From positions 1,116,001 through 1,180,000 of the forward strand of contig NZ_CP011310.1 in assembly GCF_001077815.2 (NCBI RefSeq): 64,000 bases of DNA, read 5' to 3'. The stretch is from Aurantiacibacter atlanticus (GTDB lineage: Bacteria; Pseudomonadota; Alphaproteobacteria; Sphingomonadales; Sphingomonadaceae). Made by a program: the position numbers and the translations under genes. Shown here one piece after another: positions 9,956 to 44,245 of the stretch; the first letter of the stretch is position 1; each line of letters begins with the position of its first letter. The notes beneath the pieces are model-generated. The model saw only the letters and a program-made list of their open reading frames with translations. It did not search any database and had not been told where the DNA came from.

Positions 9956-9976
9956 AATCTGTCTCGAAGCCGAAGC

Positions 9977-11975: not shown

Positions 11976-12016
11976 CGCCGGCGGCCGGATTGAGGGTTAC
12001 GCCGTTCGCGGCGATT

Positions 12017-13507: not shown

Positions 13508-13510
13508 CGC

Positions 13511-14521: not shown

Positions 14522-14774
14522 AGTAAGGTTTCTTATAACCTCCCCTTGGGTATGGCGCGACAAAGTTCCTGCAAACTCAGAACTGGCATGCGCAACCGAC
14601 TGGCTCGCACTCAGGTGGCCAATGATATGTCAGACCTGTTTCTAATGGAGCGCTACTTTTCGTATACGGTGAAATGATCCTGTGTTGATACCAGCATCGA
14701 AGATAAATGTGGTTCGAGTTTTTGCTTTTGCAGTTTTAGGCAGGCTGGCGAGATAAGCGCGGACTGACAGACGA
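14522..14774. other. Intergenic region upstream of ldhA
   Basis: This 253-bp gap lies between the start of ldhA and the 3' end of the alcohol dehydrogenase, both leftward. No open frame with family features and no TTGA-N6-TCAA box was seen. TTATAACCTCCCC at about 14533-14545 gives a purine-rich GGGGAGG on the minus strand, 18 bases from the ldhA start, too far to be an ideal ribosome binding site. Confidence 0.35.
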
Positions 14775-15798: not shown

Positions 15799-15833
15799 CG
15801 TCGTCACTCCTCTTCCCGCACTTTCGCCAGCCA

Positions 15834-15875
15834 GCTATAGGGCGCTCGACACGGGCACGCGTTGATAAAGGTCAA
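15834..15875 (-). promoter_or_regulatory. FNR/FixK-type class II promoter of adh
   Basis: TTGATAAAGGTCAA at 15862-15875 matches the FNR/FixK consensus TTGAT-N4-(G/A)TCAA at all ten defined positions. On the minus strand it is followed after 22 bases by TATAGC (15839-15834), the right place for a -10 element when the activator is centred at -41.5. Transcription would start near 15827, giving a leader of about 30 bases that contains AGGAG before ATG 15798. This is the only clean FNR box seen in the window. Confidence 0.7.
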
Positions 15876-18267: not shown

Positions 18268-19620
18268 TAATGGGATGACCCGCCCTGTCCTTCCATGCAC
18301 ATTCGGCGGACTGAGAAGGAGGTAATTATGAGCATACGCAACCAACCAAGAGATGCAGCCGTCTTCGGCATCGACATTGGCAAAACAGTCTTTCACGTTG
18401 TCGGCCTCGATGCGGCCCATGCACCGATCCAGAAGGCGACATTCAGGCGGGAGACGTTGCTGCAGTTTTTCGAACGCGCGTCGCCGGTTCTGGTCGGGAT
18501 GGAAGCATGCCCCGGTTCGCAGTGGCTGGCGCGCAAGCTGCTAGGGATGGGGCACACAGTTAGGATCGTGCCGGCACAATTCGTGAAGCCCTTCGTAAAG
18601 TCGAACAAGAACGACATCATCGACGCGGAAGCCATTGCGGAAGCCGTCACTAGGCCGACGATGCGCTTCGTAGAGATAAGGACACCGGAGCAGATCGACC
18701 TGCAAGCACTCCACCGGGTGCGAGACCGGATGATCGCCCATCGAACGAGGCTGATCAGCCAGATGCGCGCCTTCTGTCTCGAGTATGGTATCGCGATCCA
18801 TCAGGGCGCAGGCAAGTTCAAGGCCGAGATACCGCGCGTGCTTGCGGATGAGACCAACGAGCTCACCCCTTCGATGCGCCGGATCCTGACGGAGGTTCAC
18901 GGCGAGATGATGGAACTCGAACAGCGCATCACAGCCATGAACCACGAGATCGAAGCCATCGCCGCGCGCAGCGATACCGCACGGCGCCTGATGACTGTGC
19001 CGGGCATCGGACCGCTGGCCTCGACCGCTCTGCTGGCGGCGGCAGGGTCGGGACGTCAGTTCCGCAGGGCACGTGATCTCGCTGCCTGGCTCGGTCTAGT
19101 GCCGCGCGAACACTCGACCGGCGGGAAGACTAAGCTGCTTGGCATCAGCAAGCGCGGCAATAAATACCTGCGAAGGATGATCGTCCATGGTGCTCGATCC
19201 TGTGTTACACATCTCGATAGAAGCAGGGACCGCTTGGGCCCATGGCTCGACGGGCTTGAGAGCAGGATGCACAAGAACAAGGTCACGGTCGCCCTGGCTG
19301 CCAAGATCGCTCGCGTTGTCTGGGTGATTCTGACCAAGCCGGGCGCCACCTACGAGCGGCGCGTTCCAGCGTTCGGCTGAACGGCGCCGCCACCAACTGC
19401 GAGGTTCGTAAGAGTGATGACGAGACAGTGGACCAGCGCATCGTAAGCCCCGTCAAAAAAGCGGGCAGAAAGCCCGAAGCATTTATCTGGGAACGAGGCG
19501 CGCGGATCTCATCAAGGCCTGGCCGCAACAGCGGCCCACTCGCGAGAGGCCGGATACATTTGTGCAGACTGGCACCGTCAACACCAATCGACCCTTGCAT
19601 GGACAGGGCGGGTCATACAT
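18268..19620 (+). mobile_element. IS110-family (IS1111 group) insertion sequence
   Basis: The boundaries are set by rejoining the split IS3 gene: GTTACCAT on the left and TTTTTGATGCC on the right become continuous coding (ASKM-VTPGAK) when this segment is removed. Near both ends is the subterminal inverted repeat ATGACCCGCCCTGTCC (18275-18290, and as complement near 19600-19615), the feature that separates the IS1111 group from other IS110 elements. CAT is present at both junctions. It encodes one transposase. Confidence 0.85.
18328..19380 (+). CDS. IS110-family DEDD transposase
   Basis: 350 aa from ATG 18328, preceded by a strong GAAGGAGG. The N-terminal DEDD_Tnp_IS110 domain has [15 protein letters not shown] with the first Asp, [13 protein letters not shown] with the Glu, and [13 protein letters not shown] with the Asp pair. 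The C-terminal Transposase_20 domain has [18 protein letters not shown] and FAAWLGL-like [19 protein letters not shown]. It catalyses site-selective insertion through a RuvC-like active site. The frame is intact and the element may be mobile. Confidence 0.92.
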
Positions 19621-20564: not shown

Positions 20565-21545
20565 TTAGGCGGCGAGCTTGCAGTGTTGCAAGCGCCGATG
20601 TTCGAGTGTCTTTCGCTTGATCCTTTCTCTTCGTTTGATGATGGCGGCAGCCCTGCCGAAGTAGGCATCGGCGGGTGTCACATTGTCCAGGCTCTCGTGG
20701 TAGCGCTGGTGGTTATAGTGCTCGACGAAGGCCTCGATCTGCTGTTGGAGATCGCCGGGCAGGAAGTAGTTTTCCAGCAGCACGCGGTTCTTCAGGGTCT
20801 GGTGCCAGCGTTCGATCTTGCCCTGCGTCTGCGGATGGAAGGGAGCGCCGCGCACATGGCTCATCCTGTTTGCCTCGATGTATTCGGCTAGTTCCCCGGC
20901 AATGTAGCTGGGGCCATTGTCCGACAGCAGGCGGGGCCTGTGCAGCACGTTGGCGTGGTTGCAGCCTGAAGCTGCCAGCGCCATATCGAGCGTGTCAGTG
21001 ACGTCCTCGGCTCGCATGGTGGTGCAGAGCTTCCAGGCGATGATGTAGCGTGAGTAATCGTCGAGCACGGTCGAGAGATAGACCCAGCCCCATCCGATGA
21101 TCTTGAAGTAGGTAAAATCCGTCTGCCACATCTCATTGGGTCGAGAGGTCTGCGTGTGGAACGCCTCTGCCGCCTTGATCACCGTGTAGGCCGGGCTGGT
21201 GATCAGATCATGGGCCTTCAGCAGCCGGTAAACCGTGGCTTCGGACACGAAGTAGCGCTTCTCGTCGGTGAAGCGCACCGCCAGCTCGCGGGGACTGAGA
21301 TCGGTCTGCTCCAGAGCCATCTCGACGATCTGGTCCTGCACCTCGGGCCCAATACGGTTCCACACCCGGCTCGGCGCTGAAGGACGGTCCTGGAGCGCCT
21401 CCGGCCCACCTTCGAGGTAGCGGTCATACCAGCGATAGAAGGTCCGCCGTGCCACGCCGAGCTGGTCCAGCGTACGCTTGGCGGGCAGGTGCGACTGCTC
21501 GACGATCCTGATGATCTCCAGCTTCTCGGATGCGGGATACCTCAT
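20565..21545 (-). CDS. IS3-family transposase orfB
   Basis: 326 aa from ATG 21545, whose first bases overlap the orfA stop as ATGA. An N-terminal helix-turn-helix (RTLDQLGVARRTFYRWYDRY) is followed by the rve core with catalytic residues in MWQTDFTYFKI, RLLSDNGPSY and QGKIERWHQTLK. The frame is intact. Its 3' terminal sequence is the one found as a relic upstream of the cation ATPase at 4757-4839. Confidence 0.88.
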   Translation of the reverse strand: MRYPASEKLEIIRIVEQSHLPAKRTLDQLGVARRTFYRWYDRYLEGGPEALQDRPSAPSRVWNRIGPEVQDQIVEMALEQTDLSPRELAVRFTDEKRYFVSEATVYRLLKAHDLITSPAYTVIKAAEAFHTQTSRPNEMWQTDFTYFKIIGWGWVYLSTVLDDYSRYIIAWKLCTTMRAEDVTDTLDMALAASGCNHANVLHRPRLLSDNGPSYIAGELAEYIEANRMSHVRGAPFHPQTQGKIERWHQTLKNRVLLENYFLPGDLQQQIEAFVEHYNHQRYHESLDNVTPADAYFGRAAAIIKRRERIKRKTLEHRRLQHCKLAA

Positions 21546-21916
21546 TCGTCGTCTCCCCCATCCGCGATCATGCTTTTTTTGAGCAGACGGTTCTCCAGCG
21601 TCAGGTCCGCCACGCATTCCTTCAGATCGCGCGCTTCACGGCGCAGATCCTTTACCTCGTCGGTGGTAGCAGCACGGGCTGTATCGCCAGCAAGCCTGCG
21701 CTTGCCGGCCTCCATGAACTCCTTGGACCAGGTGTAATACAGGCTCTGTGCGATCCCTTCACGGCGGCACAGCTCGGCAATGGAGTCATCGCCGCGTAGG
21801 CCATCGAGCACGATGCGGATCTTGTCTTCAGCAGAGAAATGCCGACGGGTCTTGCGGCGGATGTCCTTCACCACCTGCTCGGCAGGCAATTTGGGCTTTG
21901 AGGATTTGGGCTTCAT
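21542..21916 (-). CDS. IS3-family transposase orfA
   Basis: 124 aa. Transposase_8 (HTH) domain: RRHFSAEDKIRIVLDGLRG, ELCRREGIAQSLYYTWSKEF. A C-terminal coiled coil follows (DLRREARDLKECVADLTLEN). The stop overlaps the orfB start by ATGA, allowing coupled translation or a frameshift fusion. Confidence 0.87.
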   Translation of the reverse strand: MKPKSSKPKLPAEQVVKDIRRKTRRHFSAEDKIRIVLDGLRGDDSIAELCRREGIAQSLYYTWSKEFMEAGKRRLAGDTARAATTDEVKDLRREARDLKECVADLTLENRLLKKSMIADGGDDE

Positions 21917-27548: not shown

Positions 27549-28178
27549 ATGAACGATAGTGATAACGTTACGACAAACGAGCCCGAGGAGGCTTTGCGGC
27601 CAATGGATGAAGCGGTGCGCCGGGCCCTGGTGGAAGGCCATGAGGGGATGCTGCGGTTTCTTATCGGACGGCTGCGCAATCGCAATGATGCTGAAGAAGT
27701 TCTTCAGCGGTTCATGCTGCGCGCTATTGAGCGTGCCAATGACTTGCGAGACGTTAAGTCGGTCAAGGGGTGGCTTTCGAAAGTCCTCGCGACGACATTG
27801 ATCGATTTCCATCGCCAAGCGACACGTAGCCGCATGAAGGAAACCGTTGTCGACCCGCAGGAGCTTGCCGAGCTCGCGGAAGCCGAAGGCCCGAGCGACG
27901 ACGACATCGAAGCGGCGATTTGCAATTGCTTGTACCGCCTCCTGCCGACGCTCAAGTCGGAATATGCGGAAATCATCTGGCGCGCCGACTTGCTCGAAGA
28001 ACCGCGCGAAAGCATTGCAGAAAGTCTCGATACGACGGTCAACAACATCAATGTACGCCTTTACCGCGCCCGCGGCGCTCTCAAGCAGCGCCTGCTCCAG
28101 ATGTGCCGAACCTGCGTAATTCACGGTTTTCTTGATTGTGAGTGCCAGCACGAAACGGTCGACAGCGGCGCTTCGTAG
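27549..28178 (+). CDS. ECF-like RNA polymerase sigma factor with Cys-rich C-terminal tail
   Basis: 209 aa from ATG 27549 (AGGACAG upstream). Region 2: MLRFLIGRLRNRNDAEEVLQ with RAIERANDLRDVKSVKGWLS. Region 4: LLPTLKSEYAEIIWRADLLE, then SIAESLDTTVNNINVRLYRA. After region 4 is the tail CRTCVIHGFLDCECQ, a C-x2-C-x7-C-x-C arrangement that could hold zinc or respond to redox. No anti-sigma factor is adjacent. It is a paralogue of the factor at 50906-51499, which lacks the tail. Likely role is transcription of stress genes in the island; this is inference. Confidence 0.82.
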   Translation: MNDSDNVTTNEPEEALRPMDEAVRRALVEGHEGMLRFLIGRLRNRNDAEEVLQRFMLRAIERANDLRDVKSVKGWLSKVLATTLIDFHRQATRSRMKETVVDPQELAELAEAEGPSDDDIEAAICNCLYRLLPTLKSEYAEIIWRADLLEEPRESIAESLDTTVNNINVRLYRARGALKQRLLQMCRTCVIHGFLDCECQHETVDSGAS

Positions 28179-28214
28179 CGGTCTGTGAGGCGAGACGAGA
28201 GCCTATCCTTCCCT

Positions 28215-28409
28215 CTAGTTCCGCAAGCTGGATTTCGCTTTGCATTTGGTATTGGCCGGTCGGGGCGGGGGCTCCATCCCCAAAGTCCAGGCGGGCGGGT
28301 CGCTTGCAGGAAAGGACTCTTCCCCAGCCTCGTCGACCGAATTTTCGCGCCCGCGCGCATCCTTTTCAGCTTCGAATGCGGAACTTGGCTTTTTATGATC
28401 GCCACGCAT
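28215..28409 (-). CDS. Small conserved protein with ESFPASDPPAW motif
   Basis: 64 aa from ATG 28409 with GAGGAG 8 bases upstream. The core VDEAGEESFPASDPPAWTLG is a motif I recognise from many short, uncharacterised alpha- and gammaproteobacterial proteins. The rest is charged and probably disordered. It starts 14 bases after the type II GAPDH stop and is the last gene of the leftward operon. Function unknown. Confidence 0.65.
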   Translation of the reverse strand: MRGDHKKPSSAFEAEKDARGRENSVDEAGEESFPASDPPAWTLGMEPPPRPANTKCKAKSSLRN

Positions 28410-28422
28410 TTTTCGGTCTCCT

Positions 28423-29469
28423 CTAGCCCTGTAGGACATCACCAATACCGAGCGTCTCGTTGGTGAGTTGCATCGATGCAGCGGGACTGTCCTCGCTCGA
28501 AGTCAGCGCACGGATCGCATCGATCGTTTCCGGGATCACGATCGCCTGATTGTCGACCATATAATTATAGCAGAGCTCGGTCCCGTCGACGGAGAGAATA
28601 TTGCTCCACAAGGCCACTTCGTACAGATCGGAATTGGGTCGCCCCTGCATCGCCATCGCTTCCTTCACACTGTTGAGCGCAGACAGTCCGCTGCGTCCAT
28701 CGATCAGCAGAATTCGAGGTGATGAGGCGAACGCCTCAAGCACTTCCTGTTTCGAAGATGGCCGCGTAAGCTCGACATACCAGCTATGCAAATGGGCGAT
28801 GGTTTCTGGGACCTTGACGGCGATCGTGACGACGTCGAGATCAGGGTCGACAAGGCGCGCGTCGGGCCCCTGATGGCTCGGTACGCTTGGCTCTGGCACC
28901 AGGGTATTCATGATTCCGCCGAGATGGCTTTCCCACGGATCGGTCGCACGCCTCATAAGCGTACCGCGCGCCTTTTTGAGAAGTCCGGCCCGCTTCAAAG
29001 TTCCTAATGTGCGCACGATCGAAGTGGTGTTGCACGAAACCACTCGGGTCGCATCGCGCCCCAAGGCGCTTTCATAGGTCGCCTCAGCGACGAAGGAGTG
29101 ACCTGCAACATCGTGCTTTTCGCCGCCCTGCACGATAAACGGCTTGCCCGCGCGCCGGTAAGCCTTCGCATTCTCGGCGCCGATATTTTTCGGTGTGCAA
29201 TCGACGATGACGTCGCTCGCGGCAATCAGGTCATCGAGCGATCCTGCCGCGCTCACGCCCGCTTCTGCAAAGGCTTCACTGGCGTTCGCGCTTGCGGCGA
29301 ACAGCGGAATCTCGCGTTCTGTCAGCATCCGGATCCGCCAATCCGCCGACACATCCGCGAAACCGGAGAGCGACATGTCGGGCTGCAGCGTGATTGCATC
29401 GATCACCCGGCGTCCAATGACACCGGCGCCGACTACACCGACTGACGTTTTTTCTTGCTTGGTTGTCAT
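28423..29469 (-). CDS. Type II (archaeal-type) glyceraldehyde-3-phosphate dehydrogenase
   Basis: 348 aa from ATG 29469 (GGAG 9 bases upstream). N-terminal Rossmann motif VGVVGAGVIGRRVIDAI. Catalytic Cys 146 lies in RVVSCNTTSIVRTL, the type II signature rather than the bacterial SCTTNC. VPEPSVPSHQGPD and the C-terminal IVIPETIDAIRAL are also type II features. The enzyme oxidises glyceraldehyde 3-phosphate with NAD(P). Such enzymes are standard in Archaea and rare in Proteobacteria. It sits 56 bases after PRPP synthetase in the same orientation. An alternative dehydrogenase substrate is conceivable, but all key residues fit GAPDH. Confidence 0.85.
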   Translation of the reverse strand: MTTKQEKTSVGVVGAGVIGRRVIDAITLQPDMSLSGFADVSADWRIRMLTEREIPLFAASANASEAFAEAGVSAAGSLDDLIAASDVIVDCTPKNIGAENAKAYRRAGKPFIVQGGEKHDVAGHSFVAEATYESALGRDATRVVSCNTTSIVRTLGTLKRAGLLKKARGTLMRRATDPWESHLGGIMNTLVPEPSVPSHQGPDARLVDPDLDVVTIAVKVPETIAHLHSWYVELTRPSSKQEVLEAFASSPRILLIDGRSGLSALNSVKEAMAMQGRPNSDLYEVALWSNILSVDGTELCYNYMVDNQAIVIPETIDAIRALTSSEDSPAASMQLTNETLGIGDVLQG

Positions 29470-29525
29470 CGTGTTTCACTCCATTCAAACGTCTTGGCGC
29501 ATTGCCCGCACAACAGCAGCCGAGG

Positions 29526-30443
29526 TCAAACGCCTGCGCCGATCAATTCGTCATTTTGGGCGCTCCATTCGCACAGCGCTTCTGCGATCGGTCGGGAGAT
29601 ATCGATTGTGTTGGTTTCATGCTCGATGGCGTTGACACTGATCACGCGCGCTACGCCGGCAGCGAGTAAATCCTGATAGGCGTCGCCTGCGAAGATCGGG
29701 TGCACAACGATGCAAATGGGCGCCTTAGCGCCTACTTTGAGAAGCATTTTGACCGTTTCGATGAGCGTGCGCGCACTCGATGCTATATCGTCGATAATAA
29801 CCGGCTGCCTGTCGCCGATACCGCGAAGACTCCCTCCGCTGATCGCCACATCGAAATCCCCCCAGCGCTGTTTTTCCAGGACAGCGGAAGGCACTTTTGC
29901 CCTCTCGGCAACATCGCGCACCCACTGCTCGCTTTCCTCGTCGGGGCCGATGAGAAACGCGTCGGGGATATGGGTCTCGATCCATTCTGCGATCGATGGA
30001 GCTGCAGGGATGACCTTGGCGGGCACGGTATAAATCTCGTCCAATCTCGTGATGCGGTGAAGGTGGGGGTCAACCGTCACCAGGAAATCGAAGTAAAATG
30101 AAAGAAGGCGCGCGAACGATCTCGAAGTGACCGCTTCGCCGGAATGGAAGACCTTGTCCTGGCGCATATAGGCCAAATAGGGCGCGGCAAGCGCGACGCT
30201 ACGCGCGCCCTGGTCGCGCAAGGCGTCAACCGCAAAGAGAAGCGGTGCAAGCTTTGCGTCAGGTCGATCGAGGGTGGCGAGTAAAACAACATCGCGACCG
30301 CTGACCGGGGTCAGCAGACGCAGATAGGTTTCGCCGTCGGGAAAACGGCGCGTCTCCAGCTCGCCGAGATCGGCGTCGAAATGACGGGCGAGCCCTTCTG
30401 CCATCTCCGCTGGCTCGCTGAGAGAAAATACAATTCTGTTCAT
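29526..30443 (-). CDS. prs: Ribose-phosphate pyrophosphokinase (PRPP synthetase)
   Basis: 305 aa from ATG 30443, overlapping the previous stop as ATGA and with GGAGG in that overlap region. N-terminal FPDGETYLRL; the ATP-side loop is YLAYMRQDKVFHSGEAVTSR; divalent-metal motif TVDPHLHRI; PRPP-binding loop VIIDDIASSARTL. It lacks the extra flexible segment of class I bacterial enzymes and looks closer to the archaeal type, but this needs an alignment. Reaction: ribose 5-phosphate + ATP to PRPP + AMP. The AMP made could be a substrate of the phosphorylase encoded directly upstream. Confidence 0.87.
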   Translation of the reverse strand: MNRIVFSLSEPAEMAEGLARHFDADLGELETRRFPDGETYLRLLTPVSGRDVVLLATLDRPDAKLAPLLFAVDALRDQGARSVALAAPYLAYMRQDKVFHSGEAVTSRSFARLLSFYFDFLVTVDPHLHRITRLDEIYTVPAKVIPAAPSIAEWIETHIPDAFLIGPDEESEQWVRDVAERAKVPSAVLEKQRWGDFDVAISGGSLRGIGDRQPVIIDDIASSARTLIETVKMLLKVGAKAPICIVVHPIFAGDAYQDLLAAGVARVISVNAIEHETNTIDISRPIAEALCEWSAQNDELIGAGV

Positions 30444-31978
30444 GGGGCCTCCATTCGGACAACGTCCTCGTTTCGTGCTGCATAGGTATATGCGTAGTCG
30501 AGTTCGCCGCGGCTCTCGCTGTGGATCGTAAAGAGAGGCTCTCCCCTTTCGACCATCTGGCCGACGCGCGTGTGAAGAACGATACCGGCCGCTGCGCGTT
30601 GCGGCGCGCCAGCCAGCTTCGCGATGCGCGCCAGACGACGATTGTCGAAGGCGGCGATACGTCCTGGCCTGGGCGCAACAATATCACGGGTTTGCCGCGC
30701 CTTGCCAGGCGTTCTGAAGCCCCCTTGCGCCTCGCATATCCGCAGGAACTTGGCTTCCGCATGGCCCTCGACGAGCAAGCTGGTAGCAGCAGCGCGCGCA
30801 TCGTTGCGGCTGGTTCCTTCCAATTCGAGAAGACCGGCGGCGAGTGCTAGCGCCCGCTCCCTGAGGTCCGCGGGACCACTATCCTTGTTTCCCAGTACTG
30901 CGAGAACGTCATGCGCCTCGAGCGCAGGACCGATACCACGTCCTACGGGCTGGGTGCCGTCAGTCTGCATTGCTGCGATCTTCAGGCCACATTGTGTTCC
31001 AACCGTTTCGAGCAAGTGTGTCAGGGCGTCTGCGCCTTGCGAATTTCTGATCTTGGCCGTGGGGCCGACGGGTAGATCAAGCAACACATGGGTCGACCCT
31101 GCTGCCAGCTTCTTTGAAAGCACCGAAGCGACGAGCTGGGCATCGCTGTCGATGTCAAGCGCGCGCTCGATGCGGATCAGCACGTCATCTGCGGGGCTCA
31201 GATTGACGCTGCCTCCCCAAACGATACAGCCGCCTTCGCGTTCGACGACTTTCTGCATTGCAGGGATATCGAGCGCCACCGGAGCCATGGTTTCCATTGT
31301 GTCGGCCGTTCCGGCGGGCGAGGTAATGGCTCTCGAGGACGTCTTGGGCATGGAGAGCCCGGCCGCCGCGACAATTGCCACGACTATGGGTGTTGTGCGG
31401 TTGCCGGGCAGCCCGCCGACGCAGTGCTTGTCCATCACCCGGTCCGCTGGCCATTGCATCCGGTCTCCGGCGGCAAGCATGGCCCGTGTGAGCGCGGCCG
31501 TTTCCTCCACATCGACCGGCTGCGCTGCGAAACCGGACACAAACGCAGCGATTTCGACATCGGAATACCGCCCGCCTGCAATATCGGAAATTATTGCCTG
31601 AAGGCCCGGTTCGGCAAGCCGGTGACCGTAAAGCTTACCCCGCACATTGCTCAGCGACGAAAGGGGCTGGGGATGCCTGACCGTCAGCTCTTCGCCATCT
31701 TCAAGCGAAAGCCGATCGAGCAAAGAATGCGGAATGCCGACCTCATCGTCGGCAAGCAGTTCGCCTGTCGCCCGATAGAGGGTTGCAAGCAGCGTATGCC
31801 CATTTGCAACGATTTCCACCCGGGCCCGCGCGCGAAATCCTTCCGACCGCGCGACCGGGCAATCCTCATGCATGAAGACCATTGCCTCGCCGCCTGTCTC
31901 GATCGGGAGGGCGCGCGCGCGCAAAGGATGGGAAGTCCCCGTATTGTGAACGCTCGCGGTGTCAGAAGCGCTCCCCAT
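30440..31978 (-). CDS. AMP/thymidine phosphorylase (archaeal-type DeoA family)
   Basis: 512 aa from ATG 31978, overlapping the upstream stop by one base. About 90 N-terminal residues form the extra domain found in AMP phosphorylases and absent from ordinary DeoA. The phosphate/substrate core is MDKHCVGGLPGNRTTPIVVA (about residue 182), followed by KTSSRAITSPAGTADTMETM. The C-terminal domain has GGFRTPGKARQTRDI and AGIVLHTRVGQMVERGEPLF. Characterised archaeal relatives convert AMP (also CMP, UMP) plus phosphate to base and ribose 1,5-bisphosphate. No RuBisCO or ribose-1,5-bisphosphate isomerase is in the window, so the fate of the product is open. Confidence 0.85.
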   Translation of the reverse strand: MGSASDTASVHNTGTSHPLRARALPIETGGEAMVFMHEDCPVARSEGFRARARVEIVANGHTLLATLYRATGELLADDEVGIPHSLLDRLSLEDGEELTVRHPQPLSSLSNVRGKLYGHRLAEPGLQAIISDIAGGRYSDVEIAAFVSGFAAQPVDVEETAALTRAMLAAGDRMQWPADRVMDKHCVGGLPGNRTTPIVVAIVAAAGLSMPKTSSRAITSPAGTADTMETMAPVALDIPAMQKVVEREGGCIVWGGSVNLSPADDVLIRIERALDIDSDAQLVASVLSKKLAAGSTHVLLDLPVGPTAKIRNSQGADALTHLLETVGTQCGLKIAAMQTDGTQPVGRGIGPALEAHDVLAVLGNKDSGPADLRERALALAAGLLELEGTSRNDARAAATSLLVEGHAEAKFLRICEAQGGFRTPGKARQTRDIVAPRPGRIAAFDNRRLARIAKLAGAPQRAAAGIVLHTRVGQMVERGEPLFTIHSESRGELDYAYTYAARNEDVVRMEAP

Positions 31979-33339
31979 CAAAGATCGACCACTTCCGCAT
32001 GTCCCGGAACACGTGCAGGCCAGCCAAAGCGCTCTGTAATGAGATGCCGGAATGTATCCGAAGCTGCCGCCTCGCCATGCGTGACGAAAACCTGCCGCGG
32101 TGCTGAGCCGAACCCTTCGAGCCAGTGCAACAGCTCGCCCTGATCGGCATGTGCCGACAGCATGTCGAGTTGAGCAACTTCAGCCCTGATCGGTATGTAG
32201 CTACCGTGAATCTTCAGTTCAGTGGCTCCATCGCGCAGCGCCGCCCCGCGTGTTCCGCCGGCCTGATAGCCTGCAAGAATGATCGTGTTGCGATGGCTGG
32301 GGGCGTTGTGCTTCAAATGATGGAGGATGCGGCCGCCTGTTGCCATGCCGCTCGCCGAGATAATGATCTTCGGCATGGCGTTGCGGTTCAATGCTTTGGA
32401 CTCTTCGGCTTCGCGGACATATTCGGCAATACCGCAGGCTTCCCGGCATTGCTCTTCCGTCAGACGATGCTCGCCGAGATGGTCGCAGAATATCGAGCTC
32501 GCATTCACCGCCATGGGGCTGTCGAGATAGATCGGGATCTGGGGGAGCTTGCCTCGCCGCCGCAATTGGCTGAGATGGTACAGGAGCGACTGCGCGCGGC
32601 CCACGGCGAACGATGGAATGATGACCGATCCACCCCGCCTGACGGTTCTTCCGATCACATCTTCAAGCACGCTTTCAGGGTCTGCTTCGCCATGATCGCG
32701 ATTCCCATATGTCGATTCGGTAACGATATAATCGGCCTGGGGCACGGGTTCGGGATCGACCATGGTCGCGCTGCCATACCGGCCAATATCGCCAGAGAAT
32801 GCAATACGAAGATCGCCACATTGCAGCTCGATGCTGGCGGCGCCGAGAATATGGCCCATTGGACGAAAGACCGCCGTGCAGTCGGGCGTGATCTCTACTG
32901 GTTCTGAAAATGGTGCAGGCTTGAACGATTTAAGCGCGGTCTTCGCATCCTCCTGAGTATAGAGTGGGCGCGGCGATTTGTGGCGGCTGTATCCCTTCCT
33001 TTTGGCATAGCGGGCATCAGCTTCCATCAAATACCCGCTATCCGGGAGCAGCAGCTCGCACAGCCTGAACGTCGCATGCGTGCTGATTACTGGCCCTTTG
33101 AATCCATCGCGGACCAGCGCCGGAACATAGCCCGAATGATCCAGATGCGCATGCGTGAGCAGCACCGCATCGAGCGACGCCGGATCAACTGGAAAGCTTT
33201 GCCAATTGCGCTCGCGAAGCTGCTTGTATCCCTGGAACAGGCCACAATCGACCAGAATCCGGTGCGTGGGCGTCTGGAGCAAATATCTCGATCCGGTAAC
33301 CGTGCCGGCCGCCCCTAGAAAACTCAGTTTGTAACTCAC
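31978..33339 (-). CDS. Beta-CASP metallo-beta-lactamase-fold hydrolase (RNA-processing exonuclease family)
   Basis: 453 aa from GTG 33339 (AAAGG 6 bases upstream); an ATG 42 bases further up gives a less likely N-terminus. The zinc site has THAHLDH (His 63, His 65, Asp 67, His 68), with GDIGRYGS and later LSAHADQ. The beta-CASP domain includes SFAVGRAQSLLYHL, YLDSPMAVNASSIF and IIISASGMATGGRILHHLKH. RMMBL-type end: VFVTHGEAAASDTF. Relatives are CPSF73/YsnA-like RNases acting on RNA 5' ends. Nuclease activity is inferred from family. It is coupled by overlap to the AMP phosphorylase gene. Confidence 0.88.
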   Translation of the reverse strand: MSYKLSFLGAAGTVTGSRYLLQTPTHRILVDCGLFQGYKQLRERNWQSFPVDPASLDAVLLTHAHLDHSGYVPALVRDGFKGPVISTHATFRLCELLLPDSGYLMEADARYAKRKGYSRHKSPRPLYTQEDAKTALKSFKPAPFSEPVEITPDCTAVFRPMGHILGAASIELQCGDLRIAFSGDIGRYGSATMVDPEPVPQADYIVTESTYGNRDHGEADPESVLEDVIGRTVRRGGSVIIPSFAVGRAQSLLYHLSQLRRRGKLPQIPIYLDSPMAVNASSIFCDHLGEHRLTEEQCREACGIAEYVREAEESKALNRNAMPKIIISASGMATGGRILHHLKHNAPSHRNTIILAGYQAGGTRGAALRDGATELKIHGSYIPIRAEVAQLDMLSAHADQGELLHWLEGFGSAPRQVFVTHGEAAASDTFRHLITERFGWPARVPGHAEVVDL

Positions 33340-33408
33340 ACTGCACCTTTCCCATCTTGCCAAAGGGTTTGCCAAGCCCAATGAAAAGACGGGACTTCGG
33401 GCAGAGGA

Positions 33409-34644
33409 TTACAGTTTGGAGCTAGCGGCAGACTCATCTGCCCCAATGTCGGCATCGCCGAGTGAAAGAACCGGCGCAAACCCACCTCCGGGAGTTCGCA
33501 TATTGGTCGCTTGACCCTGATAGAGACGCGCTGCAGTCATCAGGATCTGCCCGGCGTAAGTGTATAGCCTCACATCGACCTTGAGATCGACCACCTCTCC
33601 ATCCAGGCGCACTTTCCGAACGCTCGGCGGAGTAAAAAGTTGAGCGACATAATCGCCCGCGACGATTTGCTCCCAAACCTTCTTTGTCAGCTTCGCACCG
33701 CGATAGACACCTTTGCTACCATGGCCGCGTGAGGGCTTGAAGAACCACTTGCGTCGTTCGGCCCAGAAGCGTTCGGCATTGCCCGCATCCACTCGCCGCG
33801 TCTTAGGTATAGCTGCGAGCAGCGTGTCGATTTCACTACTCTTCAGCTCCGACCTCGCGAGCCAATCTGCATCGGATAATAGGCAGAAATTGCGTTTGTC
33901 GGCAAACAGAGCATGGATGTGCGGGTTTGGGGTAAGAACCACTTTGTTGGCCAGATAGGCTTCGCGCAAGGTCGCACTCTCTGCTCGTTCGAGGGAAAAA
34001 TCGACGAGACGGTTATAGACGAGGTCGATCTTGCGCTTGCCGCAAAACAGCCCAGTGGGTGTCACAGCAAGTTGTTCAGGTCCTGCGATAATTGCGTCAA
34101 AGCCAGATCTTTCAAGAAGGGACCGCGCGGCGAGGAATTCCGGATAGAGCGGCTGCGCTTCGGGTTCTTCGTCGATGATCGCGATGGACTTCAGTTGGCC
34201 TTCCCGGCCCTTGGCTTGCCATTCGTCCTCGAACATCGCGACGATCCTCTTGCGGAACGCCTCGCCTTTATCGTCTGCGACAAGGGCGGGGTGGAATGTC
34301 TGGCAGCATTGCGCCTGGGCTTCCGACAGGACGGCGTTGAGGAAGGCGCCGCCGGCATTCGTGTTGATTTCAATAAGCCGTGGGCCGTCGGCGGTGAGGT
34401 GAAAGTCATATCCCATAAAGGCACCCCGGGGGCCGAAGTCCGGTTCTGCAATGGTCGGCGCCCAGCTCATCACTGCCGAACGGAATTGAGGGGATCGGGA
34501 AACCTTCTCGATTGCTGCCACAACCTCCATCATTGCGGTCAACGTCTTCTGATCGACAAACACCGGAGAGTTGGCGAACAGATGGGGCTGCGCATTCAGA
34601 AGTTCTTCCCCGAATCCGACCTGGCCGACTGTCACATCGAGCAT
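33409..34644 (-). CDS. ATP-grasp-like protein with permuted motif order
   Basis: 411 aa if started at ATG 34644; matching-looking sequence (RINAECLCITLDRAKLTEML) continues upstream to about 34740, so the true start is unclear. The metal-binding motif IEINTNAGGAF comes early (about residue 90), and the nucleotide-binding Lys motif FFKPSRGHGSKGVYRG comes late (about 300), with VDLKVDVRLYTYAGQI and ARLYQGQATNMR after it. In normal ATP-grasp enzymes the Lys motif comes first. This order fits circularly permuted ATP-grasp proteins, which make peptide-like bonds. Substrate unknown. It ends 69 bases before the metallo-hydrolase and probably leads the operon. Confidence 0.65.
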   Translation of the reverse strand: MLDVTVGQVGFGEELLNAQPHLFANSPVFVDQKTLTAMMEVVAAIEKVSRSPQFRSAVMSWAPTIAEPDFGPRGAFMGYDFHLTADGPRLIEINTNAGGAFLNAVLSEAQAQCCQTFHPALVADDKGEAFRKRIVAMFEDEWQAKGREGQLKSIAIIDEEPEAQPLYPEFLAARSLLERSGFDAIIAGPEQLAVTPTGLFCGKRKIDLVYNRLVDFSLERAESATLREAYLANKVVLTPNPHIHALFADKRNFCLLSDADWLARSELKSSEIDTLLAAIPKTRRVDAGNAERFWAERRKWFFKPSRGHGSKGVYRGAKLTKKVWEQIVAGDYVAQLFTPPSVRKVRLDGEVVDLKVDVRLYTYAGQILMTAARLYQGQATNMRTPGGGFAPVLSLGDADIGADESAASSKL

Positions 34645-34849
34645 CTCCGTCAGCTTTGCCCGGTCCAGAGTGATGCACAGGCACTCCGCATTTATCCGCC
34701 CGGCGCTCTCGCTGCCTTCAAGCGTCCCCTTGCATGCCGAACGCGTATTACGTGATGGCGGTTTGATAGGCCCCTCCTGATCGGCGCTGATGATGCATAT
34801 TGCCGAAGCGAACAGTTGCAGTTTTCCTTTGTGTGGGCGACAAACAGCT
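34645..34849. promoter_or_regulatory. Divergent start region of ATP-grasp operon and aidB
   Basis: On the minus strand AGGAGGGGCCTATC lies near 34770-34783. It is a near-perfect Shine-Dalgarno in frame with the ATP-grasp coding, but the codon 5 bases downstream is ATC, not ATG/GTG/TTG. No consensus FNR or EcfG (GGAAC-N16-GTT) promoter was seen on either strand. Confidence 0.35.
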
Positions 34850-36574: not shown

Positions 36575-38953
36575 TCAACCCGTAGCCTGCTCCGGGACCA
36601 ACTGCGGGGAAGCCGATGGCGACCGGCTTTCAGGCAAGAACCCGTCGAGCCGCGCGCGTTTCAATAGCAGGGCATTGACCGCCACGAGCACCGAGCTTCC
36701 AGACATTGCCAGCGCGGCAACCGCCGGGCTGATGATGAACGGATAAAACACCCCGGCGGCAGCCGGAAAGGCGATGACATTATAGGCCACCGCCCAGAAC
36801 AGGTTCTGGTGCATCTTCCTGAGCGTGGCGCGAGAAAGTTCGACCGCTCCGACGACATCATAGGGATCGCTGCGCATGAGGACGACGTCGGCGCTTTCCA
36901 TCGCTACATCGGTGCCCGCGCCAATTGCAAAGCCTACATCGGCCTGCGTCAAGGCAGGAGCATCGTTGATCCCATCACCAACCATGCCAACCCTTTTGCC
37001 CTGTGCCTGGAGCTCCTTCACCTTTTCCGCCTTTTGCCCGGGCAGAACATCGGCGAGTACGATATCGATACCGAGCTCTTCGGCAACGCGGCGAGCGGTT
37101 CCTTCATTGTCACCGGTGAGCATCGCGACGTCGATGCCTTTCTCATGCAATTTGCTGATAGCGGCGAGCGCCGTGGGACGCGGAGCATCGGCGATTGCGA
37201 TCAAGCCGATGAGAACCCCCTTGTGAGCGACGTGGACCACGGTCCGGCCAGCGCCTTTGAGTTCCTCGGCCCTGTCTTCCAGATCATCCATGGAAATGGA
37301 CTCTTCGTCCATCAACCGGCGGTTCCCGAGAAAAACGGCGACTCCATTCACCTCTGCCCGGGCTCCCTTACCGTCAAGGTTGAGGAAGTTCTTCGCCTCG
37401 GGAACCTTGAGCGCATCTGCCTTGTCGAGAATGGCAAGGGCGAGCGGATGCTCGGATCCGTGTTCGACTGCGGCCGCTAGCATGAGTACCTGTTCGGGCA
37501 TGCGCCCGGTCGAAGCCACGATGTCGACAACGCGCGGCTCGCCCATCGTCAGCGTGCCGGTCTTGTCGAAAATGATGATATCCAGCTTGGTCGCATCCTC
37601 AAGCGCTGCAGCATTCTTGAAGAGCGTTCCATGCGAAGCGCCCAGTCCTGTCCCGACCATCACAGCCATGGGTGTGGCAAGGCCAAGTGCATCGGGACAG
37701 GCGATGACAAAGACCGTGATCGTGAGTGTCACGGCAAAAAGCAGCGTCGCACCAATCCACCAGAACCAGACAGCAAAAGTCGCCAAACCGATAACGATCG
37801 CGATCAGCACGAGCCATTGCGATGCCCGGTCGGCCAGCAATTGTGCCGGAGCCTTGGAATTCTGCGCTTCCTGCACCAGCTTGACAATCTGTGCGAGCGC
37901 CGTGTCCGCCCCCACCTTGGTCGCGCGGTAGCGGAAACTGCCGCTCTTGTTGATGGTTGCACCGATGACTTCATCGCCCGGGCTTTTGCCAACTGGCATG
38001 GATTCTCCGGTCAGCATCGATTCATCGACCTCCGAGCTGCCTTCGACAATTTCACCGTCTACGGGGATTTTGTTGCCGGGCCGGATAATGACGATGTCGC
38101 CCTGAAGCACGTTGGCCGTTGGGACTTCCTGCTCTACCCCGTCGCGCAGCACCACCGCCATTGGCGGGGCGAGGTCCAGCAAGGCGCGGATGGCCGCCGA
38201 CGCGCCCGCGCGGGCGCGCATTTCCAACCAATGGCCGAGCAGGATGAAAACCAGCAATATGGCCACCGCCTCGTAGAATTGAACGCCGGGAAAGAAGAAG
38301 GTCGACCCGACGCTGAAAAGGTAGCCGGTCCCAACGGACAGCACGACGAGAACGGCCATGTTGAGGACGCCATTGCGCAGCGCTCGCCAGGCGGCGACCG
38401 CAAAAGGCCATGCCGGGTAGAGCACGGCGGCGCTTGCGAGACCGAACAGCCATAGTTCGAGATCTATCCCGAAGGGCGGCGCTGGCGGCGTGAAGAAACC
38501 ACCCATCGGGGAATAGATGAAGATCGGCAGGGTGAAGATGAACGCAATCCAGAAACGGTTGCGCATGTCGCGTACCATTTCCTGCATATCGCTGCCCGCA
38601 CCGTGCCCCATTTCATGAGCCATCTCATCCCTGACAGCCGCAGCGCCATGTTTGTGACTCTTGATCTTCTTTTCCTTTGCGGGAACCTTTGCATCCTCCC
38701 CTGAGCCGGCCGCAGGGCGCGCGCAAACATGTGCAGGCATGATGCCGCCGCGGCAGCGGAAGCCGCAGCTCTGGATCAATTTCTTCAGTCGAGCCGCATC
38801 GGTCTGCGCGGGGTCATATTCCAGAGTTACGCTGCCTCCGGCGGGATTCGCCGTAGCGCGGCCTACACCGCGTTCGCGCATGAGCTGCTTTTCAACTCCG
38901 AGATGATCAAGTGCCTCGAAGAGACCACCGACTTCCAGGGTAAGTGTTGCCAA
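36575..38953 (-). CDS. P1B-type heavy-metal ATPase with CPD motif
   Basis: 792 aa from TTG 38953 (AGAGGGAATTC upstream, [10 protein letters not shown]); an ATG at 38986 is the alternative. The N-terminal domain looks like HMA ([20 protein letters not shown]) but has no CxxC. A His/Met-rich linker follows ([20 protein letters not shown]). Actuator: [13 protein letters not shown]. The membrane metal site is [11 protein letters not shown] (Cys 419, Asp 421) instead of CPC or CPH. Phosphorylation Asp 463 is in [14 protein letters not shown] motif EHPLA; hinge [12 protein letters not shown]. It exports a soft or transition metal; the CPD motif makes the ion uncertain. It is 62 bases after the second pfkB gene, likely the same operon. 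Confidence 0.9.
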
Positions 38954-39015
38954 TTTGAATTCCCTCTTGGCTGAACCATGTATCATTGAATCCAGACGGT
39001 GCGCCGCCGCAGCTC

Positions 39016-39951
39016 TTACACCTCGGTTCCCTTGTCTCTCTGAAGCTCCGCGTAAAGCCGCTCGACATCGCCGCGCTCGCACAGCGCCGTCCCCGGCGTC
39101 AGGGCGGTGGCGGCACCGGCCGCCATTCCATAAAGAAAGGCCGTCTCGGGCGTGTCTCCGGCGGCGAGGCGAAGGGTCATCGCCGCCAGAAAGCTGTCGC
39201 CCGACCCGACCGCGCTTTTCGCCTTTATCTTCGGCGCCGCGCGCTGGAACGTGCGCTCGCCGGTCATGAGCATGGCGCCGCCTGCCCCGCGGGTTAGAGC
39301 GAGCAACTCGATCCCATCCTCGTACATCAATTCCCTTGCAGCCGCCTCCTGCGCTTCGGGTGACGGCAATTCCTGGCCAACCAGTGTTTCAAGTTCGCCG
39401 AGGCTCGGTTTGGCCAGATGTACGCCGCCGGCGAGCCCCTGCCGCAGGGCTTCGCCTGAACTGTCCAGCACAAGCTTGATGCCCTGTTGGCGGCAGATCG
39501 CTCCGATCATCGCGTAGATGTCCGTCCGCAACCCCCGAGGGATACTGCCGCTGGCGACGAGGTACTCGCAATCCAAGGTGCGCAAGGCTTGAAGGAGGGC
39601 CCCGCAATCGCGTTCGGTCACCTCTGGCCCTTCTGGCACAAAGCGGAACTCGAGCGCAGTGGACCGCTCGTAGATCGTATGGCTGATGCGCGTTAAGCCG
39701 GGTATTGCGAAACGCTCGGCCCGAACTCCGGTTTGTCTTAAAAGATCCTGCAATATGCTTCCGGTCGCTCCGCCGCCCAGATAAAGGGCGAATGCCCTGC
39801 CGCCGAGTTCCTTGATTACCCGTGCTACATTGATGCCGCCGCCGCCGGGGTAATATTGCTCTTCGGCCGTGCGTATTTTGTGCACAGGCACGACTTTCTC
39901 TGCCTGCGCGGAACCATCGATAGCGGGATTGAGCGTAAGGGTTGCAATCAT
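39016..39951 (-). CDS. PfkB-family sugar kinase, second copy
   Basis: 311 aa from ATG 39951 ([20 protein letters not shown]), chosen because it lines up with the paralogue at 11037; ATG 39969 adds six residues. The [17 protein letters not shown] loop and [13 protein letters not shown] (catalytic Asp 252) are intact. The C-terminus [19 protein letters not shown] matches the paralogue. It would phosphorylate a fructose or tagatose phosphate. Two diverged pfkB copies in one island suggest an ancient duplication or two sugar phosphates. Same orientation as, and 62 bases before, the P1B ATPase gene. Confidence 0.88.
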
Positions 39952-40285
39952 AGGAGCAAATTTTCTCATATTATTAGAGTGAGGCAGATAAGAAGGACGC
40001 TGCAGTCGCGCCGCGCTTACGCAAGGCCTGCCGGTAGAGAGGCCAAAGCATTGGTCAGGATGGGGCTTTCTTAGGCAGGTCTCGCGCCGCGCGACACGTA
40101 AGGGAATCGCGAAGACGCCTGCGCCTTTTCGGTGAGTGTTTGGTCAGTTCTCGCGCAGCGCTCCGACATTCGGCGAATTGATCAGGCAATTTCGCATGGG
40201 CGCGGGCTTTAATGCTGTATTGCTATGTAATCCGCTTTAGGCCCGACCGTCTGTTCTCATCGTGCGCACAGGAGACGGCAGAAGA
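39952..40285. promoter_or_regulatory. Divergent intergenic region with candidate extended -10 element
   Basis: This 334-bp gap lies between pfkB (leftward) and an alpha/beta hydrolase gene (rightward). TGCTATGTA at 40221-40229 followed by GGCCCGA at 40240-40246 repeats the word pair seen before the first pfkB gene, here with a spacing two bases longer. TTGATCAGGCAA near 40178 is not a proper FNR box. No gene is visible. Confidence 0.35.
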
Positions 40286-41137: not shown

Positions 41138-41258
41138 ATGCGGCCCTCTCGCACCGGGGTGATCGCCAAAACCGAACGCCTATCGATCAAATGTGCCCTT
41201 CGCAGCCGTAATCGACCGGCCTGCGTTCCGTCGGATAAAGAGTGCACCACATGGAAGA

Positions 41259-42887
41259 GTGCACGGTCAGCCGGAGGTGCGCATCTCTTTCATCCTATTT
41301 GCCGCAGCGCTGTCGCCCTTGCTCGGCGTGCTCGTCCTTCTGGTCGGACTGAGGCTGCCGGCGTCGCGTGCCATGGCTTTGAGTTACCTCATAACGCTCG
41401 GCGCCGGTCTCTTCCTGTGGCAAATGCCGCCCGTTACAATCCTCGCCGCTTCCATTGAGGGTCTGGCGATTGCGGCATCGGTGCTATGGATCATCCTTGG
41501 CGCGATCCTTCTTCTAAAGCTCCTGAGCGAAGGCAAGGCGATGGAGCGGATACGAACAGGGTTCGCTGCACTATCGCCGGAGCCGCGCGTGCAGCTTGTG
41601 GTCATAAGCTGGACCTTCGGTGCCTTTCTCGAAGGCGCCGCCGGTTTCGGAACGCCTGCGGCGATTACAGCACCGCTTCTGGTTGCGCTTCGATTTTCGC
41701 CGATCGGGGCCGTGACGCTCGCGTTGGTCGCGAACAGCAGCCCAGTGGCATTCGGAGCGATCGGCACGCCGGTCGCGATCGGTTTGCAAGAGGGATTGCG
41801 CCAGTCGAATGCTCCCGCAGGTGGGTTCACGCTTATCGAAGGTGCCGCCAGCACGGCCGCTGCGATCGACCTGCTCGCCGGCTCCTTCATCCCTTGGGTA
41901 CTTGTCCTGCTCTATTCTCGATTTTTTTCCCAGGAACGCAGCTGGAAAAGCGGCTTGGCCTATTGGCGCTTCGCGCTATTTGCAGGATTTGCCTATACAG
42001 TTCCCACGTTCGCCGTCGCCTTGCTCCTTGGCCCTGAGCTTCCCACGCTGCTCGGCGCCCTTGCCGCCATCATGCTCGTGATTCCCGCTGCGCAGCGTGG
42101 CTGGCTTGTGCCTCGCTCTGACAAAGCCGCTCCTGGACCGCCCGCCATAACCCGGTCATCGCCCCTTTCGCTGCTGCGAGCCTGGGGGCCCTATCTCATT
42201 CTTGCTGCCCTCCTGCTCGTGACCCGGACCGATCTCCTGCCGATTAAACACGCATTGCAGAGCGCGTCACTCGGATGGGATCGCGTACTCGGCACCACGA
42301 TAAACATCGCCCTGGCCCCTCTTTACCTGCCCGGCACGATGTTTCTCATTGCCGCCATATCGGCCCTCTTCCTGTTGCCGTTCGACCACCAGAAAATACT
42401 TCGTGCCGGCCGCGACACAGTCAAAATCACCGCCGCGAGCGCGATGACCCTTGCCGCCGCCGTGCCGATGATCCGCGTCTTCGTGCATTCCTCCGACAAT
42501 ATGGCGGGGTTGCCGAGCATGCCGATGTCTCTCGCCAGTCTCGCTGCCGATGCGGCTGGCAGCAGCTGGATGATCTTCGCGCCATTCATCGGTGCATTGG
42601 GGAGCTTTCTGTCGGGAAGCGCAACCTTCAGCAACATGACCTTCGCACTGTTTCAGGTCACGGCAGCCGAACAGGCCTCTTTGCAGCCAGAAATCGTCCT
42701 GGCAGCGCAGATTCTCGGCGCGAGTGCGGGCAATATGGTTTCGGTCGTGAACGTCGTGGCCGCTGCGGCCGTAGTAGGGCTCGTCGGGCGCGAGGGAACG
42801 ATCATCCGTTTCACGCTCGTTCCTATGCTCGCTTATACGTCCACAGTAGGACTTCTGGCGATCGCCTTTGCGAGCGTGCCGGGATGA
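41259..42887 (+). CDS. lctP: L-lactate permease family transporter, second copy
   Basis: 542 aa from GTG 41259; the start is uncertain (GTG 41193 and GTG 41277 are in frame; no ATG is available before the first helix). It is strongly hydrophobic with LctP signatures: FGAFLEGAAGFGTPAAITAP, GAIGTPVAIGLQ, FIGALGSFLSGSATFSNMTF and ASAGNMVSVVNVVAAAAVVG. It diverges from the copy at 12017-13507, notably in the HN to VN change in the last motif, so it may prefer another 2-hydroxy acid. Its stop overlaps the next start as ATGA, so it is translationally coupled to a cation/proton antiporter. Confidence 0.87.
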   Translation: MHGQPEVRISFILFAAALSPLLGVLVLLVGLRLPASRAMALSYLITLGAGLFLWQMPPVTILAASIEGLAIAASVLWIILGAILLLKLLSEGKAMERIRTGFAALSPEPRVQLVVISWTFGAFLEGAAGFGTPAAITAPLLVALRFSPIGAVTLALVANSSPVAFGAIGTPVAIGLQEGLRQSNAPAGGFTLIEGAASTAAAIDLLAGSFIPWVLVLLYSRFFSQERSWKSGLAYWRFALFAGFAYTVPTFAVALLLGPELPTLLGALAAIMLVIPAAQRGWLVPRSDKAAPGPPAITRSSPLSLLRAWGPYLILAALLLVTRTDLLPIKHALQSASLGWDRVLGTTINIALAPLYLPGTMFLIAAISALFLLPFDHQKILRAGRDTVKITAASAMTLAAAVPMIRVFVHSSDNMAGLPSMPMSLASLAADAAGSSWMIFAPFIGALGSFLSGSATFSNMTFALFQVTAAEQASLQPEIVLAAQILGASAGNMVSVVNVVAAAAVVGLVGREGTIIRFTLVPMLAYTSTVGLLAIAFASVPG

Positions 42888-44110: not shown

Positions 44111-44245
44111 TAGGGCGGCTCCCCTCACGTCTCTTATATTGAGAAAACGCAAGGACGCACCAGAGTTTCGCGCGTATTGCACCGGTCATTGCGGTGGCAG
44201 CGCATGACCTTCGTCTTAAGATGCACGACGGATCCGGAGATTTCG
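44111..44245. other. Gap before PEP synthase
   Basis: 135 bases. TTGAGAAAACGCAA near 44139 is only a weak FNR-like match (three mismatches in the half-sites). CGGAGATTTCG directly before ATG 44246 is the ribosome binding site. The ppsA frame is open upstream to 44177 but shows no conserved residues there. Confidence 0.35.

Follow-up and report, generated by a model that had tools for sequence, protein, structure and literature searches.

A candidate low-oxygen ribose-catabolism operon of Aurantiacibacter atlanticus and its recurring core of three genes

A 64,000-nucleotide stretch of the Aurantiacibacter atlanticus genome (contig NZ_CP011310.1, positions 1,116,001 to 1,180,000; called the window below) carries a leftward run of six genes, from ~34.7 to ~28.2 kb, in which a beta-CASP metallo-hydrolase of the metallo-beta-lactamase (MBL) superfamily, a phosphorylase and a protein resembling phosphoribosyl pyrophosphate (PRPP) synthetase stand side by side. 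We propose that this operon may be a low-oxygen ribose-catabolism module leading from RNA-derived nucleoside monophosphates (NMPs) through ribose 1,5-bisphosphate (R15P) to ribose 5-phosphate (R5P) and energy, a proposal that in our judgment could go either way. The unit is the set of three genes just named, hereafter the triad, to which a type II glyceraldehyde-3-phosphate dehydrogenase (GAPDH-II) and an ATP-grasp protein are optional additions. In the proposed scheme the beta-CASP enzyme would help to degrade RNA, as its fold and solved relatives suggest, and the phosphorylase would split NMPs with phosphate into base and R15P, as its shared active-site residues suggest, so that no ATP would be spent on phosphorylating the sugar. 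The PRPP-synthetase-like enzyme would then turn R15P, directly or via PRPP, into R5P with an adenine nucleotide as the phosphate acceptor, and R5P would enter the pentose-phosphate route. To judge from gene linkage, the resulting sugar phosphates would meet a PfkB kinase and GAPDH-II in A. atlanticus, while elsewhere linked phosphoketolase and acetate kinase would give acetyl phosphate and ATP. What is likely to be new in the scheme is the step between R15P and R5P.

Results

Layout of the operon

An earlier note on this DNA had described six leftward genes packed with overlaps of 1 and 4 bases, and this layout was confirmed on the sequence. Four of the six genes are backed by curated models or Pfam. 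In gene order they are:

33409..34710, minus strand: ATP-grasp ligase with a glutathionylspermidine/glutathione synthetase fold (structure model and fold matches; 34710 is only the edge of the modelled stretch and the start is uncertain)
31978..33339, minus strand: beta-CASP/RMMBL metallo-hydrolase of the RNase TTHA0252 type (Pfam; 2dkf alignment; probable start at GTG 33339)
30440..31978, minus strand: NMP-phosphorylase-like enzyme, annotated "thymidine phosphorylase family" (NF003338 and TIGR02645 over cut-off; start at ATG 31978, with TTG 31981 as an alternative)
29526..30443, minus strand: PRPP-synthetase-like enzyme (subfamily NF005537 over cut-off)
28423..29469, minus strand: GAPDH-II (NF003251 and TIGR01546 over cut-off)
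28215..28409, minus strand: small protein of 64 aa (SFPASDPPAWT motif in the translation)

The triad is conserved, linked and co-inherited

We compared 120 loci, of which 40 came from a sample of 289 Alphaproteobacteria and 80 were the best 80 of at least 571 matches. The sample loci represent 39 of the 41 genomes in which the phosphorylase exceeds the NF003338 cut-off together with G038, which falls just below it; A. atlanticus itself and G230, whose contig is shorter than 4 kb, were excluded. The expectation that the triad genes are neighbors in related genomes was borne out, with a PRPP-synthetase family member in 80 of the 120 loci (66 best-match, 14 sample) and an MBL protein in 74 (57 best-match, 17 sample). 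GAPDH-II was present in 13 loci and the ATP-grasp gene in 10, all best-match, and a relative of the 64-aa protein in two (L073 and L077). Of the six genes presented earlier as one operon, the triad is the unit whose linkage recurs, and GAPDH-II and the ATP-grasp protein are optional. When 12 of the 80 best-match loci were dropped at 90% identity, 68 remained, and among the 62 of these with enough flank the phosphorylase was followed directly by PRPP synthetase in 39, preceded directly by MBL in 37 (upstream counts are approximate because ORF start positions are rough) and flanked by both in 24. The junction between phosphorylase and PRPP synthetase is a 4-base overlap in 21 loci, and the triad recurs across Proteobacteria and Bacteroidota with such overlaps frequent. 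The closest named match among the best 80 of at least 571, from Qipengyuania sp. (L073, phosphorylase 71% identical), carries two P-type ATPase genes and a divergent acyl-CoA dehydrogenase, after which the six genes of the operon, from ATP-grasp to the small gene, stand in the order found here.

The co-occurrence extends to whole genomes. Of the 289 Alphaproteobacteria, 41 have the phosphorylase over its cut-off, and among the 21 with the PRPP-synthetase subfamily (E 1e-60) 20 are in this group (Fisher p 1.5e-18). The remaining one of the 21, G051, is the one whose PRPP protein falls under its own cut-off. Protein distances of the triad members correlate across 45 loci (r 0.73, 0.72 and 0.54), and none of 2000 permutations gave values as high.

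The set also appears on mobile DNA. A block of ~21 kb holding the triad, a D-2-hydroxyacid dehydrogenase and GAPDH-II is 98.3-99.5% identical in Pigmentiphaga, Pseudomonas rhodesiae, Hydrogenophaga and two Burkholderiales assemblies (L125, L129, L142, L146 and L152; contamination of a single assembly is possible), with the Hydrogenophaga copy lacking ~1.7 kb. A phosphorylase relative (E <=1e-60) is encoded on 114 of 72,556 plasmid records, 45 of them conjugative, and both plasmids that were opened carry the MBL, phosphorylase and PRPP-synthetase genes consecutively. On pCME4A9II (L166) the triad is accompanied by P-type ATPases, an L-lactate permease and a fructose bisphosphate aldolase, with atpD at the edge; on pSAMIE_3 (L167) an F-type ATPase operon that includes AtpZ/AtpI-family genes is close by and might be of the N-ATPase type. 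Movement of the triad between bacteria is supported by these data. The idea that the genes had been acquired from archaea as a unit found no support: the 80 best named matches are all bacterial by title and the set moves among bacteria, though no tree was made. Two integrase-core transposase genes (17377-18420 and 20565-21617) lie ~7-11 kb from the operon in A. atlanticus.

One alternative is that the genes only travel together on low-oxygen and metal-resistance islands, with the beta-CASP enzyme acting in RNA processing and no pathway shared. P-type ATPases and efflux-pump families are indeed common neighbors (a P-type ATPase cluster occurs in 46 of the 120 loci), P-type ATPases adjoin the triad on one of the two opened plasmids, F-type ATPase genes are close to it on both, and the side and order of the MBL gene vary. 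The 4-base overlaps and the near-complete co-occurrence speak against it, both having been measured for the phosphorylase/PRPP pair and not for metal pumps, and we regard this alternative as quite unlikely.

The phosphorylase sides with an archaeal NMP phosphorylase at most discriminating positions

The phosphorylase exceeds the cut-offs of its family models (646.5 vs 434 bits for NF003338/PRK04350 and 574.1 vs 434.6 for TIGR02645), whose curated name is putative thymidine phosphorylase, and falls far below that of the DeoA model TIGR02643, T_phosphoryl (138.3 vs 570.7 bits). The closest solved structure is the AMP phosphorylase of Thermococcus kodakarensis (4ga5, 326 bits; 312 for its shorter construct), and the next different solved protein, a pyrimidine nucleoside phosphorylase, scores 146 bits. 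We aligned 80 phosphorylases from PRPP-linked loci with 37 further ones, 9 DeoA-type proteins and the T. kodakarensis piece, leaving out L044, L045 and L052. At 34 columns that separate the family from DeoA, the T. kodakarensis enzyme follows the family in 23, DeoA in 6 (one of which lies outside the typed T. kodakarensis piece) and neither in 5, in keeping with the archaeal type assigned earlier. Glu272 of the family, also Glu in the T. kodakarensis enzyme, stands where thymidine phosphorylase has an Arg that we take to be its base-holding residue, and the motifs GG[LV]PGN[RK]T and SSRAITSxAGTAD are common to the family and the T. kodakarensis NMP phosphorylase. These features suggest that the phosphorylase works like an archaeal NMP phosphorylase rather than a thymidine phosphorylase.

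The same comparison bears on a more ordinary explanation, nucleoside salvage, in which a thymidine or pyrimidine nucleoside phosphorylase would release the sugar and the PRPP synthetase would use the ribose for nucleotides. The curated family name favors it, as does the homology of thymidine and pyrimidine-nucleoside phosphorylases to this enzyme. The wide miss of the TIGR02643 cut-off and the discriminating residues, including the exchange of the base-site Arg for Glu, weaken a thymidine phosphorylase identity, and the genome has no DeoB; we consider this explanation very unlikely. A group of divergent phosphorylases (L037-L051, 32-42% identical), also from Alphaproteobacteria, has no PRPP-synthetase or MBL match in the locus and forms a separate group with its own context.

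The beta-CASP enzyme and the ATP-grasp protein

The beta-CASP protein carries the MBL motif THAHLDH (HxHxDH type) and, by Pfam, beta-CASP and RMMBL domains, and it aligns to the structure of RNase TTHA0252 (2dkf) with 261.5 bits. We infer a putative RNase from these matches; identification as Cas14 or aCPSF1 was rejected, as both models score under their cut-offs. The ATP-grasp gene gave no family match in the Pfam and curated model scans, and its search for sequence relatives in the PDB returned a single match at E 0.36. Its predicted structure (pLDDT 87) matches the fold of glutathionylspermidine/glutathione-type ATP-grasp ligases.

A separate PRPP-synthetase subfamily and the fate of R15P

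The PRPP-synthetase-like protein scores 392.9 against NF005537 (cut-off 322). The 3.23-Mb genome has another PRPP synthetase at C1:547128, whose PF13793 match reaches 176 bits where the operon copy has 78, and elsewhere it also encodes a type I GAPDH domain; because of these paralogues, the PRPP synthetase and GAPDH of the operon are additional enzymes. In alignment to 1cf2 the operon GAPDH retains the active-site cysteine of SCNTT. The PRPP alignment comprised 72 sequences, the window protein and 71 relatives, after 10 of 81 members outside 270-330 aa had been dropped. H127, D168, K191, R193, D219 and T226 are kept in all 72 and D218 in 71; we take these to be the catalytic Lys/Arg loop, the Mg-binding His/Asp and the DD of the ribose-phosphate loop. 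Another set of residues, L128-H129-R130, G166, E170-S171 and D196, is equally invariant in the 72 and differs from both the genome's other PRPP synthetase and 1u9y. Likewise, the Gly that precedes the last Thr of the ribose-phosphate loop in the paralogue and in 1u9y is replaced by Arg in 46 of the 72 sequences and by His in 13. A distinct reaction or substrate is plausible for an enzyme with this pattern.

Several routes for R15P were sought in the A. atlanticus genome. There is no member of the IF-2B family (PF01008), to which R15P isomerase belongs, and none of the 289 Alphaproteobacteria has a protein over the TIGR00511 R15P isomerase cut-off, so the archaeal isomerase route was rejected. 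DeoB was not found; no DeoA-type paralogue was found, the sole other Glycos_transf_3 protein being TrpD (339.7 bits, cut-off 199); and no true PhnN was found, the sole PhnN-like match (42 vs 156 bits) being guanylate kinase. By this elimination, by the lack of an isomerase over the cut-off in all 289 genomes, and by linkage, the PRPP-synthetase-like enzyme is the best candidate user of R15P. The PRPP synthetase named in the earlier note is indeed linked to the phosphorylase; its role has been changed to that of a separate subfamily that would run towards R5P. The chemistry would be the reverse of PRPP synthesis minus one phosphate, and by our estimate the step would require low ATP and high AMP. 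A bolder version, which we think improbable, is that the protein is a new enzyme transferring the C1 phosphate of R15P to AMP or ADP to give R5P and ADP or ATP, which would amount to substrate-level phosphorylation from RNA.

Linked genes of energy metabolism

In the 120 loci a phosphoketolase-like gene was found in 28 and an acetate-kinase-like gene in 14, all best-match; the phosphoketolase family is present in 21 of the 68 dereplicated best-match loci, and phosphoketolase or acetate kinase in 24. Haliea (L109) has MBL first, followed by phosphorylase, acetate-kinase-like, phosphoketolase-like and PRPP synthetase, and 4-base overlaps link these last four. In Sphingopyxis NORP11 (L077) one strand carries acetate kinase (318 vs 293.4 for TIGR00016), one ORF, phosphoketolase, MBL, phosphorylase, PRPP synthetase and GAPDH-II. 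The phosphoketolases of L109 and L077 are divergent (at best 148 and 130 bits vs cut-offs of 777 and 962), although that of L109 passes the Pfam XFP cut-off and the motifs of the divergent type align with solved phosphoketolases. Of the 28 cluster members, 25 are 51-100% identical to the L109 copy and those of L089, L097 and L128 are 25-28% identical, with L097 having an ordinary phosphoketolase over its cut-off (1164 vs 962 bits). The linkage of two versions of phosphoketolase to the same triad makes a shared pathway more likely. D-2-hydroxyacid dehydrogenase is also present in related loci.

These partners help to weigh another reading of the triad, nucleotide homeostasis, in which the phosphorylase would remove AMP that builds up under energy stress and the PRPP synthetase would remake PRPP to serve salvage, tuning adenylate and PRPP pools. 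The ordinary forward reaction is possible because the catalytic residues are kept, and in many loci the phosphorylase-PRPP pair is linked without phosphoketolase or GAPDH-II. On the other hand, the genome already has another PRPP synthetase, and genes for phosphoketolase, acetate kinase, GAPDH-II and D-2-hydroxyacid dehydrogenase are repeatedly linked to the triad, which points towards the breakdown of sugars; we consider homeostasis unlikely.

Low oxygen and the genomic setting

In Bradyrhizobium diazoefficiens, the adjacent genes bll3115 (MBL), bll3116 (ribose-phosphate pyrophosphokinase) and bll3117 (thymidine phosphorylase family), matched to our operon by annotated name and gene order only, were increased at 0.5% O2 at the protein and the RNA level (PMC6515984). 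The increases were log2 2.9 in protein and 15.4-fold in RNA for the MBL, log2 4.4 and 7.7-fold for the PRPP synthetase, and log2 2.1 and 5.1-fold for the phosphorylase (PMC6515984, Table 2), and the table also lists phosphoketolase, a 1-phosphofructokinase family kinase and PEP synthase (PEP, phosphoenolpyruvate). Upstream of the operons of 40 relatives, FNR-like boxes with at most one mismatch were found in 9 as compared with 3.4% of 800 random pieces (p 6e-6), and exact boxes in 2 as compared with 0.25% (p 0.005), the random pieces being from the same loci and including coding DNA, which may lower the control rate.

The neighborhood of the operon adds two features:

36575..39082, minus strand: copper-type P1B ATPase adjoining the operon (TIGR01511 over cut-off)
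39016..39969, minus strand: PfkB-type hexose kinase (TIGR03168 over cut-off), possibly serving the entry of fructose 6-phosphate into glycolysis

Other fermentative or glycolytic genes of the window encode a GH65 family enzyme, two PfkB kinases, two lactate permeases, two D-2-hydroxyacid dehydrogenases, an alcohol dehydrogenase, an acetyl-CoA hydrolase/transferase and a PEP synthase family gene, a content that suits a low-oxygen energy cluster. The sole exact FNR-like box of the window, at 15862-15875 (chance mean 0.15), lies upstream of the alcohol dehydrogenase.

Other observations in the window are as follows. The zinc alcohol dehydrogenase (14775-15807) is split between overlapping frames, with the N part at 15136-15807 and the C part at 14775-15203, and looks frameshifted. 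At 7553-14563 a GH65 family enzyme, a HAD hydrolase, a PfkB kinase, a lactate permease and a D-2-hydroxyacid dehydrogenase stand in a row, possibly a second phosphorolysis and fermentation set. The PEP synthase family gene and a D-2-hydroxyacid dehydrogenase (44177-47676) overlap by 4 bases near the lactate permease at 41193-42887. An ORF of 2732 aa occupies 53369-61567 on the minus strand. For the small gene of the operon, the reference gives 28121-28405 (minus strand), without a Pfam or NCBIfam match; it starts 4 bases past the ATG and the frame may differ. No structured RNA scored above the gathering score within the window. Promoter-like sites numbered 4 (2.4 expected) and terminator-like sites 7 (6.8 expected).

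Discussion

The reading of the operon as a ribose-catabolism module is weighed down by several results. The phosphorylase misses the cut-off of the curated AMP-phosphorylase model TIGR03327 (462.8 vs 535 bits), because of which we write that it works like, and not that it is, an NMP phosphorylase; and the activities of all three triad enzymes are predictions from sequence. The 80 best-match loci, being the best 80 of at least 571 matches, favor near relatives. None of the 40 alphaproteobacterial sample loci has phosphoketolase, GAPDH-II or ATP-grasp, and 26 of them, some on short contigs, have no PRPP synthetase nearby. Across the 289 genomes, 21 of the 41 that have the phosphorylase lack the PRPP subfamily (21 of the 268 genomes that remain once those with the subfamily are set aside), and GAPDH-II is found in two, A. 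atlanticus and G095, the latter having no phosphorylase match. Phosphoketolase was not found in the A. atlanticus genome; it is present in 12 of the 289 and, among the 20 that have both phosphorylase and PRPP subfamily, in G230 only, and as an obligatory partner of the triad it was rejected. R15P-isomerase-family proteins under the cut-off (E 1e-30) occur in 125 of the 289 genomes, though not in A. atlanticus, and by our estimate the step from R15P to R5P is mildly uphill at standard conditions. In B. diazoefficiens, bll3115-bll3117 are in a looser list of 71 and outside the 62-protein core, and are unmarked as FixK2 or NifA targets (PMC6515984). No FNR box lies upstream of the A. atlanticus operon, and FNR control of this operon was accordingly rejected.

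The lxa locus of Burkholderia cenocepacia, reportedly described by Sass et al. in 2013, offers one comparison. Among the proteins listed for this low-oxygen cluster are phosphofructokinase, zinc alcohol dehydrogenase and a member of the metallo-beta-lactamase superfamily, such as are found around our operon, and the main text gives 0 mentions of thymidine phosphorylase or phosphoketolase (PMC6127331). The 30 window proteins scanned with Pfam included no universal stress protein family member. The B. diazoefficiens genes share adjacency, names and induction at 0.5% O2 with the triad; their order differs by locus number, and in the portions of PMC6515984 available they are listed and not discussed as a system. 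The NMP shunt of T. kodakarensis, part of the archaeal pentose bisphosphate pathway, consists of the NMP phosphorylase TK0352, R15P isomerase and Rubisco (PMC9700705). Our operon resembles it in its related phosphorylase and, as we infer for the enzyme here, in the first step from NMP to R15P, and differs in having no R15P isomerase family member and a PRPP-synthetase-like gene in the operon instead. Mycoplasma hominis draws ATP from the ribose phosphate of nucleoside phosphorolysis through phosphoketolase and lower glycolysis (PMC8895549), an already known use of nucleoside ribose. It uses DeoA, DeoD and DeoB on nucleosides, and the parts of PMC8895549 at hand name no NMP phosphorylase, beta-CASP enzyme or special PRPP synthetase. 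The open-licence PMC literature was searched for a prior description. Two papers, PMC6515984 and PMC8895549, contain phosphoketolase, thymidine phosphorylase and ribose-phosphate pyrophosphokinase side by side, and neither, as far as their accessible text goes, joins the triad as a system. The earlier suggestion of ribose salvage at low oxygen gains from the same-named Bradyrhizobium genes and from the linkage to energy genes, and is changed in that R15P isomerase, the next step in archaea, is missing here.

If the proposed reading of the triad is true, many aerobes would have a module for converting cellular RNA to ATP once oxygen is exhausted, and this would go some way to accounting for their survival where no fermentable substrate is available. 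A large family at present called putative thymidine phosphorylase would acquire a concrete function, and so would a PRPP-synthetase subfamily to which the curated model assigns no special role. On the bolder version, in which the PRPP-synthetase-like protein is a new phosphate-transferring enzyme, R15P would gain a further fate, beside isomerization and PhnN, by way of a mobile low-oxygen operon.

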